Origin: Synechococcus sp. CC9902
GTDB taxonomy: Bacteria; Cyanobacteriota; Cyanobacteriia; PCC-6307; Cyanobiaceae
Reading direction: 5' to 3'
DNA length: 64,000 bases
Assembly: GCF_000012505.1 (NCBI RefSeq)
Contig: NC_007513.1
Coordinates: 2,108,001-2,172,000, forward strand
A model generated the notes under the pieces. It saw nothing but the letters and a program-made list of their open reading frames with translations, did no database searches and was not told where the DNA came from. Shown here piece after piece: positions 10,895 to 20,101 of the stretch (positions are counted from its first letter, which is position 1; the number at the start of each line of letters is the position of its first letter). A program made the position numbers and the translations under genes.

Positions 10895-11683
10895 TCAACT
10901 CGAGGCAGAGGTGTAGTGACGCAAAGCAAACAACCAGAACGCCCTCGCCGAAACGAAGAAGCCACAGGCGAGAGCCAAACCCAACAACAGCATCGGTGCT
11001 GCAACACGACCCAGCAACAGCTCCGCCGGAACCGTGGTGAGAAAGGCCACTGGCAACACAAACGTGAACAGCAACCGCAGCGTGGCTGGATAGGCACTGA
11101 GTGGATATCGCCCCGCAGCCAACACGGCCCGTAGCACCTCTGTGGCGTTCCAGGTTTTGACAAACCAAATGCTGGTGGCGGCGATCAGGAACCACAGGGA
11201 GTACAAGATCACGCCCCCGGCCAGCACCATCACCAACACGGTCAGCAGTGCAGGCAGGCTGAGCACCACCCCTGCCTGGAGGCTGCCCCAGATCAGGAGC
11301 GCCAGCCCCAGGCCAATCTCCGGGAGCCCCGCCGGAGAGAGCGTGCGCAACGAGAGCCAGAACTGGCTATCGATCGGCTTGAGCAGTACGAAATCCAGGG
11401 TGCCCTCGCGCACATGGGTGACGATCGCGCCGAGGTTTGGGCGCAGCCAGGTGGTGGCCATGCCGTCAAACACGGTGTAGAGACCCTGCACCATCAGGGC
11501 CTGGGCCCAGCTCCAGCCCCCAAGGGTCTGATCGGGGCCATAGAACAACGAGAGCAAAAACAGACTGCCGCTGAGGCTCATGGCCACCGCCAGCAGCTCA
11601 ATCAGCACATTGGCTTGATACTCCAACTGCACCGCGACGGCCGTGCCCCAGAAACGCCGCAATGTTTGCCAGTACCGCCGCAT
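10895..11683 (-). CDS. ABC-2 type transporter permease (second of pair)
   Basis: 262 residues from the ATG at 11683, whose A is also the last base of the upstream gene's TGA. About six membrane helices are visible, with the family's long 'ALMVQGLYTVFDGMATTWLRPNLG' stretch and 'VREGTLDFVLLKPIDSQFW', typical of the DUF990-like ABC-2 permeases found in paired form. With the next two genes it forms a complete heterodimeric exporter. The substrate is unknown. Confidence 0.85.
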   Translation of the reverse strand: MRRYWQTLRRFWGTAVAVQLEYQANVLIELLAVAMSLSGSLFLLSLFYGPDQTLGGWSWAQALMVQGLYTVFDGMATTWLRPNLGAIVTHVREGTLDFVLLKPIDSQFWLSLRTLSPAGLPEIGLGLALLIWGSLQAGVVLSLPALLTVLVMVLAGGVILYSLWFLIAATSIWFVKTWNATEVLRAVLAAGRYPLSAYPATLRLLFTFVLPVAFLTTVPAELLLGRVAAPMLLLGLALACGFFVSARAFWLFALRHYTSASS

Positions 11684-12480
11684 CAGGCCCCCATAGCGCT
11701 GTAACGACGCACGCCAGCCCGCCAGAGCAGCAGCACTAGCGGCAACAACAAGGCGATCCAGGCCAGCTGCGCCCCGAAACCAGCCATCAGGTCCACCGGC
11801 TGCCCAGCTAGCACCCGAGCCGGAAAGTCGATCAGATAAGGGAAGGGCGTCCACTGGGCAAAAGCCCGCACCTCCGGCGGGAACGCCGTGAGCGGCGCCA
11901 AAAGGCCGGAGAGGAAGACAAAAGGAATGAACTGAAGCCGCTCGAGGGCGCTGGCCTTTTCACTCCAGAAGCAAAGGGCCGCAATCAAGCTCTGAAACAG
12001 GAAAGCAATCGCAAAGGCCAGCCAGGTGGCCAGCCAGGCCAGCAGGAACCCACCAAGAGAAGGCAGCCAGAAGGCCTGGGGCTGCACCACAAAGAACACT
12101 GCAGCGATCAGGGCCGCGAAGGGCAGACGCGTGAGCTGCTCACCCAGGTGGGCCGCCACATACCGCCAGAGCGGGTGCAGAGGTTGCAGCAGATAGGGCG
12201 ACAGCCGGCCGAGAAGAGCGTCCTCCTCGAAGGCGTAGACCACCCAAACCACCGTGAACTGGCGGACCAGATAGGCGCTGAGAAAGTAGCGATCAAGGGC
12301 CACACCATCGAGCCCCAAGCCGGTGCGGGCCTCACTGCCACTCCAGACGCTGAGCATGATGAAGGGCAGCACACCGGAGAGTGCCCAGAGGGCGATCTCA
12401 GCGCGGTACTCGAGCATGTGGGCGTACTGGGATCCCAACAGCACCCGAACAATCCGCCGGTTCAGCCCAAAGATCCGCAT
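11683..12480 (-). CDS. ABC-2 type transporter permease (first of pair)
   Basis: 265 residues from the ATG at 12480; a TTG three bases upstream is also in frame. Six hydrophobic segments with 'LLGRLSPYLLQPLHPLWRYVA', the counterpart of 'LLKPI' in the partner permease, place it in the same ABC-2 family. The start overlaps the TGA of the ATPase gene, and the stop overlaps the next permease's start. Cyanobacterial relatives are often labelled multidrug or lipid exporters without proof. Confidence 0.85.
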   Translation of the reverse strand: MRIFGLNRRIVRVLLGSQYAHMLEYRAEIALWALSGVLPFIMLSVWSGSEARTGLGLDGVALDRYFLSAYLVRQFTVVWVVYAFEEDALLGRLSPYLLQPLHPLWRYVAAHLGEQLTRLPFAALIAAVFFVVQPQAFWLPSLGGFLLAWLATWLAFAIAFLFQSLIAALCFWSEKASALERLQFIPFVFLSGLLAPLTAFPPEVRAFAQWTPFPYLIDFPARVLAGQPVDLMAGFGAQLAWIALLLPLVLLLWRAGVRRYSAMGA

Positions 12481-13466
12481 CAAACGCGCCCCTGACGGAA
12501 CAGGTCGCCGATCAAGGCATCAATCGGAGGGTCGTTGACCTCAAGATCGACAACAGGGAAGCGATCGAGGAGGGCGGCGACCACGCTGGTGAGCTCATCC
12601 CGGGCAACCCGCAGATGAACCGATGATCCCTGCAAACTCTCCAAACGCCCTAAACCAACCAAGGCATCGGCCGTAACGGGGTGCTCCAGTTCAAGCCGCA
12701 CCTCCCGTTCCGGCGCAAGAGCAAGGGTGAGCTGATCCAACGGGCCATCGTGAAACAAGGAGCCCTGGTGAATCAGCAGCACCCTGGGGCAAAGCGCCGT
12801 GATGTCTGCCATGTAATGGCTTGTGAGCAACACCGTTGCACCAGTGCGGCGGTTGTAATCAGCCAGAAACTGCCGCACCCGTGCCTGGGCATTCACATCC
12901 AGCCCCAAGGTGGGTTCATCGAGGAACAACACCTCGGGCTCATGCAACAAGGCAGCTAGAAGCTCTGCCTTCATGCGTTGGCCCAACGACAACTTTCGAA
13001 CCGGTCGGGTGAGCTCCTCCCCGAGTTCAAGCAAATCAGCCAAAGCATTGATCCGACGCTGGGCGAGCTGATCGCTGATCCCATACACCGCCGCATTCAC
13101 CCTCAGCGAATCCATCGGCGGAAGATCCCAGAGCAGCTGCTGCTTCTGCCCCATCACAAGGGTGATCCGACGCAGGAACTCCGCCTGGCGTCGTTGCGGC
13201 CGGTGCCCCGCAACCTGAACACTCCCGGAGCTGGGGTGGATCAAGCCACAAAGCATTTTCAATGTGGTGGTTTTGCCGGCGCCATTGGCCCCCAGGAAAC
13301 CCACCATCTCGCCGGGCGCGATCTGAAACGACACGTCTTGCACGGCCACCACATCTCTGGTGCGGCGCCGAACGAAATGACGCAAGGTGCCTGCCAGACC
13401 GGGCTGTTTCTCGGCAACCCGGTAAATCTTGCTGAGCCCTTCGACCTCGATCAAAACGGGGGCCAA
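12480..13466 (-). CDS. ABC transporter ATP-binding protein of ABC-2 exporter
   Basis: 328 residues. Walker A 'GANGAGKTT' is at about 59-67, the signature region 'LSLGQRMKAE' at about 158-167 and Walker B 'VLFLDEPTLGLD' near 179-190, with the H-loop in 'LLTSHYM'. An extended N-terminus ('RVAEKQPGLAGTLRHFVRR') and C-terminal domain are usual for ATPases paired with this permease type. The start is TTG at 13466 and no nearby ATG exists. It heads a four-gene minus-strand operon (ATPase, two permeases, TVP38-like). Confidence 0.92.
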   Translation of the reverse strand: MAPVLIEVEGLSKIYRVAEKQPGLAGTLRHFVRRRTRDVVAVQDVSFQIAPGEMVGFLGANGAGKTTTLKMLCGLIHPSSGSVQVAGHRPQRRQAEFLRRITLVMGQKQQLLWDLPPMDSLRVNAAVYGISDQLAQRRINALADLLELGEELTRPVRKLSLGQRMKAELLAALLHEPEVLFLDEPTLGLDVNAQARVRQFLADYNRRTGATVLLTSHYMADITALCPRVLLIHQGSLFHDGPLDQLTLALAPEREVRLELEHPVTADALVGLGRLESLQGSSVHLRVARDELTSVVAALLDRFPVVDLEVNDPPIDALIGDLFRQGRV

Positions 13467-13586: not shown

Positions 13587-14660
13587 ATGCGAAAACAGCT
13601 CGTTGGAGATCTGGACTTCCTGCACTCAAACATCGGAGTCATCGAAGGAACCATCGGATTACTGCTGATCTGGCTGGCCCTTGCCCTAATCGAACGACGC
13701 GGTCGGAGCCTCGGACAATTAATCGCCAAATCCATCCGTCAACCGCTGCTCCTGGGACTGAGTGCGTCCCTCTATCTGGGCTGGCTAGGGCAACAAATTG
13801 CCAAAAATGTCACTTGGTTAGACGGCAGCAATGCGCTGAAACTATCTGCAGCCATCACGGTGATCGCGGTCATGTGGGCGATCCATCGCCTCGGCCATGC
13901 CCTGATGGAAACCCGGCGCTTTGAGAGCTGGCTTCAAATGGATGATGCGAAAGACCGGTCAATGGCCGTCAGCTTTCTCAGCCGCATCTTCACAATCTTG
14001 ATCGTGATCATTGGTGTTGGCGCACTGATGCTCACCTTTGGTGTGCCGGCCACAGCCCTTGCCGCCCTTGGTGGGGGCGCCGGCGTCGGCCTGGCCTTTG
14101 GCACGCAAAACATCACTCAAAATTTCTTCTCTGGGTTCATGTTGTTTTTCAACCGTCCATTTAAGGAAGGAGATTGGATCAGCACAAACGGAATGGAAGG
14201 AACTGTTGAAAATATCGGTTGGTATCACACACGTCTACGCACATTTGATCGGCGACCGATGTATATCCCTAATTCGGTATTTGCCACCAACAGCATCACA
14301 AATCCGGGGCAAATGTACAACCGTCGAATTTTGGCAAATATTGGCCTGAGATACGAAGATCTCCCCGTGATGAACACCGTGACCAAGCAAATACGCGATC
14401 TACTGAAGACCCATCCCTCCATCGATCAAGATCAAATAATCTTGGTTCACTTCAACTCCTGGGAAAGCTCATCCCTCAATTTACAGATTTATTGTTTTAC
14501 TAAAACCACGGCTTGGCAAGAATATCTTGATATTCAGCAAGAAGTATTCCTGCAAATTGCATCCATCGTGCAAGCCAACAATGCCGATTTTGCCTTCGAC
14601 TGCACCACGCTCTATCCCGCACCAGAGCTGAAGCCAGAGCAGGTCTTTCCATCGTCCTAA
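13587..14660 (+). CDS. MscS-family mechanosensitive channel protein (small-conductance type)
   Basis: 357 residues: an N-terminal four-helix region, then the pore-lining Gly/Ala helix 'TALAALGGGAGVGLAFGTQNITQNFFSGFML' (about 152-182), followed by the beta domain ('RPFKEGDWIS', 'VENIGWYHTRLRTFDRRPMYIPNS') and C-terminal alpha/beta part. MscS proteins open under membrane tension to release osmolytes. It is divergent from the ABC operon across a 120-bp gap. A second MscS-type gene lies at 18806, with a different N-terminus. Confidence 0.92.
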   Translation: MRKQLVGDLDFLHSNIGVIEGTIGLLLIWLALALIERRGRSLGQLIAKSIRQPLLLGLSASLYLGWLGQQIAKNVTWLDGSNALKLSAAITVIAVMWAIHRLGHALMETRRFESWLQMDDAKDRSMAVSFLSRIFTILIVIIGVGALMLTFGVPATALAALGGGAGVGLAFGTQNITQNFFSGFMLFFNRPFKEGDWISTNGMEGTVENIGWYHTRLRTFDRRPMYIPNSVFATNSITNPGQMYNRRILANIGLRYEDLPVMNTVTKQIRDLLKTHPSIDQDQIILVHFNSWESSSLNLQIYCFTKTTAWQEYLDIQQEVFLQIASIVQANNADFAFDCTTLYPAPELKPEQVFPSS

Positions 14661-17558: not shown

Positions 17559-18809
17559 ATGCATCCAATCCGGATTCGACATCTGGCTTTGGGAATCACG
17601 CTGGCAGCGCTCACATCCGGCTGCGGCAATTGGCGCCCACCGGTTGTGATCACTGTGGTTCGCACGATCGACAATTCAGAAACAGTGTCCGCGGAGGACT
17701 ACGAACGTCTTCGTGAGATCACGGAAGAAGCGATTGATCACATCAAAAGCGTTGATCCAGCGATCCGTCCTCAGCTGACGCTGTCGTCTCAGAAAAACTT
17801 CGTTGAAGAGATTGAGGGTCAAACCCGCAGTGGCTTTGGCCCGGATCTTCTGATCACCGATAGCGATACGGCATTGGAGCTCTACCAGCGCAACTTGGTG
17901 GATCCGATTCAACTTGACCCGGAAGATCGCGCTGATACGCCGAGCTATCTATTCGACCTAGTCACAAGTCAAGACGGCCAACTGGTGGGCCGTCCAGTGA
18001 ACCAATTCGTACAGCTGGCCTGCTTCAACAAGGAGCGCATGGCCTCACCTCCCATGACTCTGGAGGAGATGGAAAAAGAGAGCGATGACAATAACTTTGG
18101 TATGGCGCTTCAACTCAAGGATTTGTTCTGGAGTGCCGAATCCTTCGACGCCGGGGAGGCCATGGAAGCCGCCCTCTCGAAGCTGCCCCCCAATACTGAG
18201 CGTCAGGCCAACGTGACCAACTGGCTGCGCTGGCTCGAAAAAGCCAGTTATCAGCAAAACATTCGTTTCCTCAACGACCAGCGCAGCCTCCGCGATGCCT
18301 TGATCAGTGGTGAGCTGGACTGGATCACCTGCTGGAGCAGCAGCCTGCGGGACCTTCGACAACAAATGCAAGGCAAGTTGGCTCTCGCTCCGCTCCCAAA
18401 AGGTCCTTCCACGCAACGCAAAGCCACCACCAAATTGCAGGTTTGGTCGCTGGGACGCAATTCCAGTCGGAACCAACGCGAAAAGGCTTTGGTGATGATC
18501 GACTTCATCAGCAAACCTTGGGCCCAAAAAACCTATGCCCTGGCAGGGCGTAACTCGTTACCCGTCAATCGCAAGGCCGCCAAAATCGTGGCCGCCAAAA
18601 TTCCCGGTGGAACGGAAGCATTGGTGATGTATGCCAAGCAATCGCTTACAGAAAACGCCGCCAAAGGGCAATCCAAAGCGCGTGTGTTCCGCGATCCAGA
18701 GCGGTATGAAGCCATTTCAGAGGCTTTGCTGGACACCATCTACGACGTCAGCTCTCCAGAGGAATCGAGCCAACACATCCTCAAAAGCTTGCGGGAGAGC
18801 GATTCATGA
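17559..18809 (+). CDS. Periplasmic-binding-protein-like lipoprotein
   Basis: 416 residues from the ATG at 17559. The signal peptide ends in a lipobox 'LTSGC' with the lipidated Cys at 22. The rest has the layout of family 1 extracellular solute-binding proteins: 'GPDLLITDSDTALELYQRNLVDPIQL', a hinge region and the late helix 'REKALVMIDFISKPWAQK' with 'GRNSLPVN'. No ABC permease or ATPase accompanies it. Its TGA overlaps the ATG of a MscS-type channel gene at 18806, which indicates coupled expression. Ligand unknown. Confidence 0.85.
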   Translation: MHPIRIRHLALGITLAALTSGCGNWRPPVVITVVRTIDNSETVSAEDYERLREITEEAIDHIKSVDPAIRPQLTLSSQKNFVEEIEGQTRSGFGPDLLITDSDTALELYQRNLVDPIQLDPEDRADTPSYLFDLVTSQDGQLVGRPVNQFVQLACFNKERMASPPMTLEEMEKESDDNNFGMALQLKDLFWSAESFDAGEAMEAALSKLPPNTERQANVTNWLRWLEKASYQQNIRFLNDQRSLRDALISGELDWITCWSSSLRDLRQQMQGKLALAPLPKGPSTQRKATTKLQVWSLGRNSSRNQREKALVMIDFISKPWAQKTYALAGRNSLPVNRKAAKIVAAKIPGGTEALVMYAKQSLTENAAKGQSKARVFRDPERYEAISEALLDTIYDVSSPEESSQHILKSLRESDS

Positions 18810-20101
18810 TCACCGAAATCACCGCTGAAACCACCGCCTGGCTGGGCTACTTGCAGCGCGGATCCGTGCTCCTCCAGGTGGGACTGTTCGTTGCAGCCCT
18901 AAGCAGCGAATCCAGGGTTAAACGCAAACTCAGCACTCCTCTAATCGCCAGCCTCAACCCTCTGATCGTGCCGGGGGTGCTCTTTCTCAGCGCCACCAGC
19001 CTGACCCTGGCTGGAGTCACCGCAGGCTATCTGCAGTATCTGGCCCTGATCTGGCTGATCTGGCGCTGCGTGGAACCCACCAAGCAGTTAATCAACGGCC
19101 GTTTTCCAAAGGTCCCCGTCGAAGAAATCGACAAGTCGTTCTTCCGACCCATCCTGCTGGTGGTGTCGATCCTCACCTTTTTCCAGATGCTGGGAAGCCG
19201 GGAATCGCTGTCGTTGATCTCCATTGGCGATGTTTTCGGAGTCACACTCACCATCGGCAAATTGTTCACGGCATTGGTGATCGTTTATCTCGTCATCACC
19301 ATGGCCAGTCGCCCTGCCTCATTCGCAGCTTGGCTTGGGGGGGGCTTTTTTGGGATCAAACCCCAGGGGCGCAAGGCACTGGAGGTAATTCTTCGCTACT
19401 CGGTGATCGGCATCGGAGTAATTGGGGTGGCCTATTACATCGGCATCAATGGCACCGCTCTGGTGGCCGTTGCCGGTGGCCTATCGGTGGGAATCGGCTT
19501 CGGGATTAAAGAAATTATCTCCAACTTCATCAGCAGCCTCTGGCTGTTGTTCGAAGGTTCCGTACGTCCAGGCGAAATCCTGATGATCAACGGTGACCCC
19601 TGCACCGTCCGAAAACTGGGGTTACGCGCCACCCAACTACGCCGAGGTCGTGATGGTGCCGAACTCCTAATTCCCAATCAAAACTTCTTCACTCAAGAGG
19701 CCGAGTCGTACACCGCAGAAGAAACATCCCGACGTGATGTGGTGGCGGTGGGAGCTGCCTATCACCACGAACCGAAGCAGGTGATTGCCATTTTGGAAGA
19801 GGTGGCCCGACAGCACGAGAAGGTTCTGCAGTACCCACCACCAGCAGCCTTCACCGTTGATTTCGCTGATTCTTCGATCAACTACAAGTTGCTGTTTTGG
19901 GTGCGAAATCCCCTGGAAGCCTTCGCAGTCGGGAGCGATCTGCGCCAAGCGATCTGGAATGCTTTTGACGAAAACGGCATTGGCATTCCGTTCCCACAGC
20001 GGCAGGTATACCCAATGGAATGGCCCCCGTCCAAAGAGCAATCCCTTCGCCTTGGCGATGCACGCCATCAATTACAAAGCGAAGCCGAAGAGGCGGACTA
20101 A
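18806..20101 (+). CDS. MscS-family channel protein paired with binding lipoprotein
   Basis: 431 residues, with an ATGA overlap to the upstream lipoprotein gene. About five N-terminal membrane helices precede the pore helix 'GTALVAVAGGLSVGIGFGIKEIISNF' (about 217-241), then the beta domain ('GSVRPGEILMINGDPCTVRKLGLRATQLR') and C-terminal domain ending in an acidic/basic tail. The pore signature is clear, with a Gly/Ala pattern like MscS TM3. It may be a gated channel rather than a simple safety valve, given its partner; that is inference. Confidence 0.9.
   Translation: MITEITAETTAWLGYLQRGSVLLQVGLFVAALSSESRVKRKLSTPLIASLNPLIVPGVLFLSATSLTLAGVTAGYLQYLALIWLIWRCVEPTKQLINGRFPKVPVEEIDKSFFRPILLVVSILTFFQMLGSRESLSLISIGDVFGVTLTIGKLFTALVIVYLVITMASRPASFAAWLGGGFFGIKPQGRKALEVILRYSVIGIGVIGVAYYIGINGTALVAVAGGLSVGIGFGIKEIISNFISSLWLLFEGSVRPGEILMINGDPCTVRKLGLRATQLRRGRDGAELLIPNQNFFTQEAESYTAEETSRRDVVAVGAAYHHEPKQVIAILEEVARQHEKVLQYPPPAAFTVDFADSSINYKLLFWVRNPLEAFAVGSDLRQAIWNAFDENGIGIPFPQRQVYPMEWPPSKEQSLRLGDARHQLQSEAEEAD

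Follow-up and report, generated by a model that had tools for sequence, protein, structure and literature searches.

A solute-binding lipoprotein gene overlapping an MscS-type channel gene forms a conserved pair in picocyanobacteria and some other cyanobacteria

Channels of the MscS family are seen mainly as tension valves. Control of an MscS-type pore by a ligand has been proposed for bCNG and other MscS relatives with sensory domains, and may hold for the gene pair described here; the sensor of those relatives is, however, a cytoplasmic domain of the channel, whereas in the pair it would be a separate periplasmic protein. In GluR0, a solute-binding protein (SBP) domain is fused to a K+ channel and a periplasmic-binding fold controls the pore, which for our pair is a proposal. 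GluR0 differs from the pair in being one polypeptide, a tetrameric K+ channel with an SBP domain of the amino-acid class, whereas the pair consists of two genes and has an MscS-type pore. The closest solved structure to our channel by sequence, and the first by fold, is MscK (KefA) of E. coli, which likewise joins an MscS pore to extra transmembrane (TM) helices. MscK is described, in excerpts of one report, as unique in that it also needs an external ion: its activation requires both tension and external K+, a property attributed to a periplasmic ring, which is linked by an amphipathic helix to the membrane part and was proposed to relay the sensing of external K+ to the pore (PMC9653487). 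According to the same excerpts MscK comprises 11 TM helices and a built-in periplasmic domain of ~500 aa (PMC9653487), whereas our channel has about seven TM helices and a separate binding protein. A pairing of an SBP with an MscS-type channel was not found described in the literature searched, although this is a weak absence since the search covered open-licence papers only. Papers on picocyanobacterial channels count or name msc genes and, in the excerpts seen, mention no binding-protein partner (PMC9948718, PMC9361551, PMC7522525); a search of the main text of PMC2874817 gave neither 'mechanosensitive' nor 'MscS'.

The window, that is, the whole 64,000-nucleotide stretch of DNA analysed, spans positions 2108001-2172000 of a picocyanobacterial single-contig genome of 2,234,828 bases, and the features of the pair are collected in Table 1. 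A preliminary description of this DNA had proposed a lipoprotein with a family-1 solute-binding layout, whose stop codon overlaps the start of an MscS-type channel gene. All three parts held up: the layout through the SBP_bac_8 match, the lipobox and the predicted fold, the overlap through the ATGA at the junction, and the channel identity through three MscS Pfam domains and the fold matches to MscK and MscS.

Table 1. Features of the lipoprotein-channel gene pair (window coordinates)
Feature	Position	Strand	Basis
Family-1 (MalE-like) solute-binding lipoprotein gene	17559..18809	+	ORF, SBP_bac_8, structure model
Predicted signal peptide and lipobox LTSG-C, lipid Cys = residue 22	17559..17624	+	sequence
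GGGAGAG, Shine-Dalgarno-like, within the end of the lipoprotein gene	18793..18799	+	read in sequence
ATGA stop/start overlap	18806..18809	+	sequence; TGA stop 18807-18809, channel ATG 18806-18808
MscS-superfamily channel gene, 7 predicted TM helices, MscK-like core	18806..20101	+	Pfam, sequence, fold
Short N-terminal helix before TM1, channel codons 2-16	18809..18853	+	helix of the model; predicted periplasmic from loop charges

The lipoprotein ORF encodes 416 aa from its ATG, or 419 aa from a TTG located 9 bases upstream. Its product combines the SBP_bac_8 domain (PF13416; E 1.4e-14, 55 bits against a Pfam cut-off of 27) with a two-lobed fold, a family-1 SBP being recognised by an SBP_bac_1 or SBP_bac_8 domain together with that fold. 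The structure model (pLDDT 88.2, pTM 0.85; a single chain, as was the model of the channel) aligned over lipoprotein residues 26-416 with GacH (VIA Z 35.8, rmsd 2.9, 359 aligned) and MalE3 (VIA Z 35.3, rmsd 3.2, 360 aligned). The family-1 sugar SBPs MalE, MalE3, GacH and UgpB resemble the lipoprotein in carrying SBP_bac_8 and in having the two-lobed fold over nearly the whole length, at listed Z values of 32.5-35.8. Such sugar SBPs of ABC importers are, however, only 11-19% identical to it in the rows listed, and they sit with a MalF/MalG-type permease, whereas the lipoprotein is without one and has a channel gene instead. Many SBP structures were tied within a few Z units in the fold ranking, and the ligand was therefore not guessed from it. 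The MalE residues that we take to contact maltose showed no conservation by eye in the single aligned stretch (profile positions 64-177). Thirteen positions of the binding protein were invariant in 40 rows (P95, D96, P146, C155, P165, G181, W191, W225, W255, C258, P280, G299 and S302), the GPD motif was retained, and Cys155 and Cys258 might form a disulfide.

Tethering of the binding protein was signalled by the lipobox (LTSGC, residues 18-22), and a pattern search recognised a lipobox in 134 of 151 binding proteins; the lipid Cys had a weighted frequency of 94% among the rows of the 151 pairs with a residue at that position. When 15 of the 17 pattern-negative N termini were viewed by eye, some proved to be variant lipoboxes and some to have been cut by the profile. 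Four binding proteins (L083, L099, L133 and L196) lack the lipid cysteine, and the hydrophobic stretch at their N terminus may be an uncleaved membrane anchor that replaces the lipid; an anchor of this kind would keep the protein at the cytoplasmic membrane.

The channel ORF encodes 431 aa with the MscS TM2/3, beta and C-terminal domains (E 4.1e-5, 3.9e-10 and 7.6e-18, respectively), and thus carries the pore-lining TM helix, the beta domain and the C-terminal alpha/beta domain of the MscS superfamily. The three Pfam matches (PF21088, PF00924 and PF21082) were all above cut-off, PF21088 barely so (23.9 versus 23.1), and up to E 1 Pfam listed no family other than MscS-type domains. The best PDB match by sequence was EcMscK (E 1.4e-29). 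EcMscK also ranked first by fold (Z 16.6, 383 aligned, residues 14-405), tied with MscS rows in a group of MscK and MscS structures at Z 15-17, and the rmsd of 14.7 indicated that the match reflects mainly shared topology. The channel lies outside NCBIfam NF008438, for which it scored 135.8 bits versus a cut-off of 991, with a match limited to profile positions 877-1092 of 1113. Its model (pLDDT 83.8, pTM 0.54) comprises a short helix at the N terminus, the MscS core and seven helices interpreted as TM, and has no periplasmic domain; as modelled, the channel resembles the MscK core minus the periplasmic domain of MscK. Loop charges placed loops 1 and 5 inside and the N terminus and loops 2, 4 and 6 outside, loop 3 fitting weakly. 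The N-terminal helix is a candidate docking element for the binding protein, and R18 and Q24 just after it were invariant in 40 rows. TRAP systems use DctQ/DctM-type membrane subunits; the membrane partner here is MscS-type, which places the pair outside TRAP-like SBP-dependent secondary transporters.

At the junction, the GGGAGAG ends 6 bases ahead of the channel ATG, and the overlapping codons suggest that translation of the two genes is coupled through the ATGA. Because the pair adjoins the divergent valS gene (named by eye) and ends before a gene on the opposite strand, it is a two-gene operon by layout. The overlap recurred among 151 sequence-distinct pairs, 85 from one set of loci and 66 from the loci of named genomes: the distance was -4 in 116 of them (112 ATGA and 4 GTGA) and -1 in 9. 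Our gap script chose the possible start nearest to a 4-base overlap and so leaned towards -4; a count at fixed offsets found an in-frame start at -4 in 116/151, whereas no other offset within 40 bases had one in more than 17, so this lean does not make the result. The overlap was retained even where the binding proteins were only ~25-30% identical. By eye, what recurred around the pair loci was either part of the surroundings of valS or an antisense frame, and the neighbours, most of which were viewed without a Pfam run, revealed no shared sugar pathway. A second, smaller MscS-type gene lies at window 13587-14660, across valS from the pair; in L065, L066, L067 and L070, loci of related genomes, a small MscS-type gene of similar length stands directly behind the paired channel, making a three-gene row.

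Conservation of the pair was followed outward from the lineage of the window, in the order and then in the class. The binding protein was present in 108 of 250 genomes of the order, and among the first 150 matches listed for each protein a channel on the same strand began within 1 kb after the binding protein in 144/150 cases, a count that G035 enters three times with a broken gene. Of the 6 misses, G164, G127 and G203 show the channel in the DNA, G100 lies at contig edges, G058 holds a remnant and the last is G235:C71. Conversely, 8 listed channels were without a listed binding-protein match; seven have one in the DNA and the eighth (G100) begins a contig. Across 80 loci from named genomes, the binding protein stood directly upstream of 79/84 channel genes, the exceptions being the L165 remnant and four genes whose starts lie no more than 231 bases from a contig end, and the channel followed 79/80 binding-protein ORFs, the remaining one being the front part of the split L148 gene, whose rear part stands ahead of an open channel gene. 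The gene unit is well supported by these observations, and the pairing is far commoner than chance adjacency. At L165:5704-6526 only the part of a channel from about residue 159 onward is left, and the locus gave no binding-protein match. Two loci labelled Rhodopirellula (L154) and Bifidobacterium breve (L177) carry the picocyanobacterial channel and are probably misbinned metagenome contigs.

In the class (338 genomes searched with the binding-protein profile at 1e-10), 91 genomes gave matches, 32 of them strong and 59 weak only. The strong genomes had a best match of 1e-39 or better that was nearly full length except in broken or cut genes; the weak ones reached ~41-53 bits over roughly the first 177 profile positions. 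With a cut-off of E 1e-62, set in the light of reading pair loci outside the family, the channel profile matched 31 genomes, namely the 32 strong binding-protein genomes minus G442, whose contig ends right after the binding protein. All 12 loci with enough flank in five other families showed the pair (8 from 7 genomes of f31 and one each from f12, f15, f24 and f26), and four weak binding-protein matches that were read (three in the 59 genomes and one a second match in G381) had no such channel within 6 kb. The matching genome sets and the paired loci thus indicate that, in this sample, the channel and binding-protein subfamilies define each other. The preliminary description had named one arrangement that would speak against it, the two genes apart in most relatives and the lipoprotein with an ABC permease; instead, the pair was near-universal where either gene was found. 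No ORF matched both profiles in 225 loci, so there is no natural fusion to cite. Phage copies of the channel were considered and rejected, as none of the 91 viral-contig stretches matching the channel pattern encodes a relative.

Both genes were present in 107 of the 250 genomes of the order, neither in 141, and a remnant only in 2 (G058 and G029), at a channel cut-off of ~1e-45 picked after the gap in E values was seen; the 107 denotes presence of both, and adjacency was checked in part of them. By this cut-off all that is left in G058 is a piece of the binding-protein gene, and in G029 a piece of the channel gene. The channel matches of G029 and G071 are confined to residues 337-428 and 377-428, respectively, the latter falling below the cut-off. 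In G058 (L104:2779-3190), residues 398-428 of the channel follow almost immediately on residues 10-119 of the binding protein, an arrangement that a single deletion spanning both genes appears to have produced. The small-genome genera g2, g3, g4 and g7, presumably Prochlorococcus, were not among the 108 binding-protein genomes. G035 (L102) and L148, a metagenome locus, have an open channel gene behind a binding-protein gene that is distributed over different frames. The channel may work alone there, or these may be decaying loci or assembly errors, and both count against a strict need for the two genes.

The two proteins also evolved in parallel. Their tree distances correlated with r 0.907 over 151 pairs, a value that includes shared species history, compared to at most 0.154 in 500 permutations. 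The nearest neighbour was the same pair in both trees for 104/151, and the nearest binding-protein relative belonged to the same channel cluster in 150/151 cases with six clusters and in 148/151 with ten. In genomes with two or three pairs (L065-L071) the paralogous pairs stayed matched, with no exchange of partners. The binding protein diverged faster than the channel (median tree-distance ratio 1.37). Residue coupling between the proteins (mutual information with APC; 151 pairs, effective number 87) was rejected as a contact signal: the region most frequent among the top pairs was the beta domain, which is cytoplasmic and so out of reach of a periplasmic protein, and the signal is therefore put down to ancestry. 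The N-terminal helix was enriched about two- to threefold in the top 50 and 200 coupled pairs, a signal inseparable from shared ancestry.

The preliminary description had also stated that no ABC transporter accompanies the pair, which stands for importers and needs qualifying for other ABC systems. The nearest of the 12 PF00528 importer permease matches in the same genome lies about 488 kb from the pair, and the genome has 4 SBP_bac_8 matches. In 12 single-contig genomes, viewed by eye in the 150 listed of 197 matches, PF00528 occurred within 5 kb of the pair only in G111, where the permease belongs to a different row of genes that includes a nitrate-type binding protein, an ATPase and a cyanase-like gene of its own (names by eye). 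Among the matches listed, 11 of the 12 genomes thus lacked the permease genes that stand with the binding protein in a CUT1-type importer. By contrast, an ABC ATPase and two ABC-2-type membrane proteins are encoded on the opposite strand at window 10895-13466, ~4 kb from the pair, ABC-2 systems being regarded as exporters. Twelve other loci have an ABC-3-like permease gene (named by eye) ~1.1 kb downstream of the pair; in L204, the one of them that was read, another small gene lies between. A further SBP_bac_8 lipoprotein-like gene of the same genome (L117:3979-5373) stands ahead of a response-regulator-like gene, and by eye no permease was recognised among the listed ORFs of at least 180 aa in that 10-kb stretch.

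With a pore protein lacking a periplasmic domain, an N-terminal helix predicted to be periplasmic and a separate tethered binding protein, a split MscK with an SBP as its sensor is the simplest reading. We consider it an even call that the products of the two genes work together in the cytoplasmic membrane as a single device, a split MscK-type channel tunable by a ligand, for which we infer physical contact, the ligand class and a gating effect of the binding protein on the channel. The channel, which lacks a periplasmic domain, would form an MscS-type pore with additional helices, a heptamer judging by its family. The tethered binding protein, whose synthesis the coupled start would keep in step with that of the channel, would sit on the periplasmic face of the latter in place of the covalent periplasmic gating ring of MscK. 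The two lobes would open and close on a small solute, probably sugar- or glycoside-like, and their movement would help or hinder membrane tension in opening the pore; when salinity falls, for example, the release of solutes could be matched to what is outside. The paired channel may then respond to an outside molecule as well as to pressure, and the suggestion of the preliminary description that a ligand bound outside controls channel opening is a reasonable one. A wider reading, which we hold tentatively and at somewhat less than an even call, is that the channel subfamily is obligately gated by a separate tethered sugar-type SBP, as a chemo-mechanical receptor built from importer and pressure-valve parts, which some genomes would have multiplied to two or three pairs, the sensors diverging faster, and which some cyanobacteria would have combined with an internal haem (globin) sensor. 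A globin domain (PF00042) is found at the C-terminal end of the channels L137:2772-4610 and L138:2802-4634 (G483 and G458 of families f15 and f12; E 2e-16 and 5.9e-17), each paired with a binding protein. If both sensors work, this variant would equip a single pore with a solute sensor on its outer side and a haem sensor on its inner side.

The conserved unit and its parallel evolution would fit equally well if the binding protein were a purely structural periplasmic subunit, such as a spacer, wall contact or assembly factor that reuses the SBP fold with ligand binding lost or irrelevant. Its faster divergence compared to the channel and the invariant Cys155 and Cys258, if they are indeed bonded, agree with such a role; yet the GPD motif and the complete two-lobed family-1 fold have both been kept, neither of which a spacer is likely to require, and we regard this explanation as unlikely. 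A lower probability still, in the range of the improbable, goes to a binding-protein-dependent facilitator analogous to TRAP systems, in which the lipoprotein would deliver or recapture a compatible solute at the pore mouth and the pair would move that one solute selectively. MscS-type pores are wide and poorly selective and no energy coupling is encoded with the pair, although a sugar-binding-class SBP beside a pore of the osmotic-release family is in keeping with a facilitator, as is the suggestion, in excerpts of a study of euryhaline Synechococcus, that glucosylglycerol is released through mechanosensitive channels on a salinity drop (PMC9948718).

It is also conceivable, but very improbable, that no physical partnership exists, the two being osmotic-response proteins that are merely co-expressed while the lipoprotein feeds an ABC importer encoded elsewhere. 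The PF00528 and SBP_bac_8 matches of the genome leave room for such an importer, and G035 and L148 keep the channel despite a broken binding-protein gene. Against this stand the distance to the closest PF00528 permease, the joint presence and absence in the 250 genomes with joint presence in five other families, and the paralogues that exchange no partners.

If the reading as a split, ligand-tunable channel is true, bacteria would possess, in a conserved MscS subfamily that is constantly partnered by a binding protein, a channel answering to ligand and tension together, in which the two-protein split makes the role of the periplasmic layer directly testable. It would also assign a role to a set of picocyanobacterial lipoproteins and would bear on how Synechococcus tunes the release of solutes in changing salinity.
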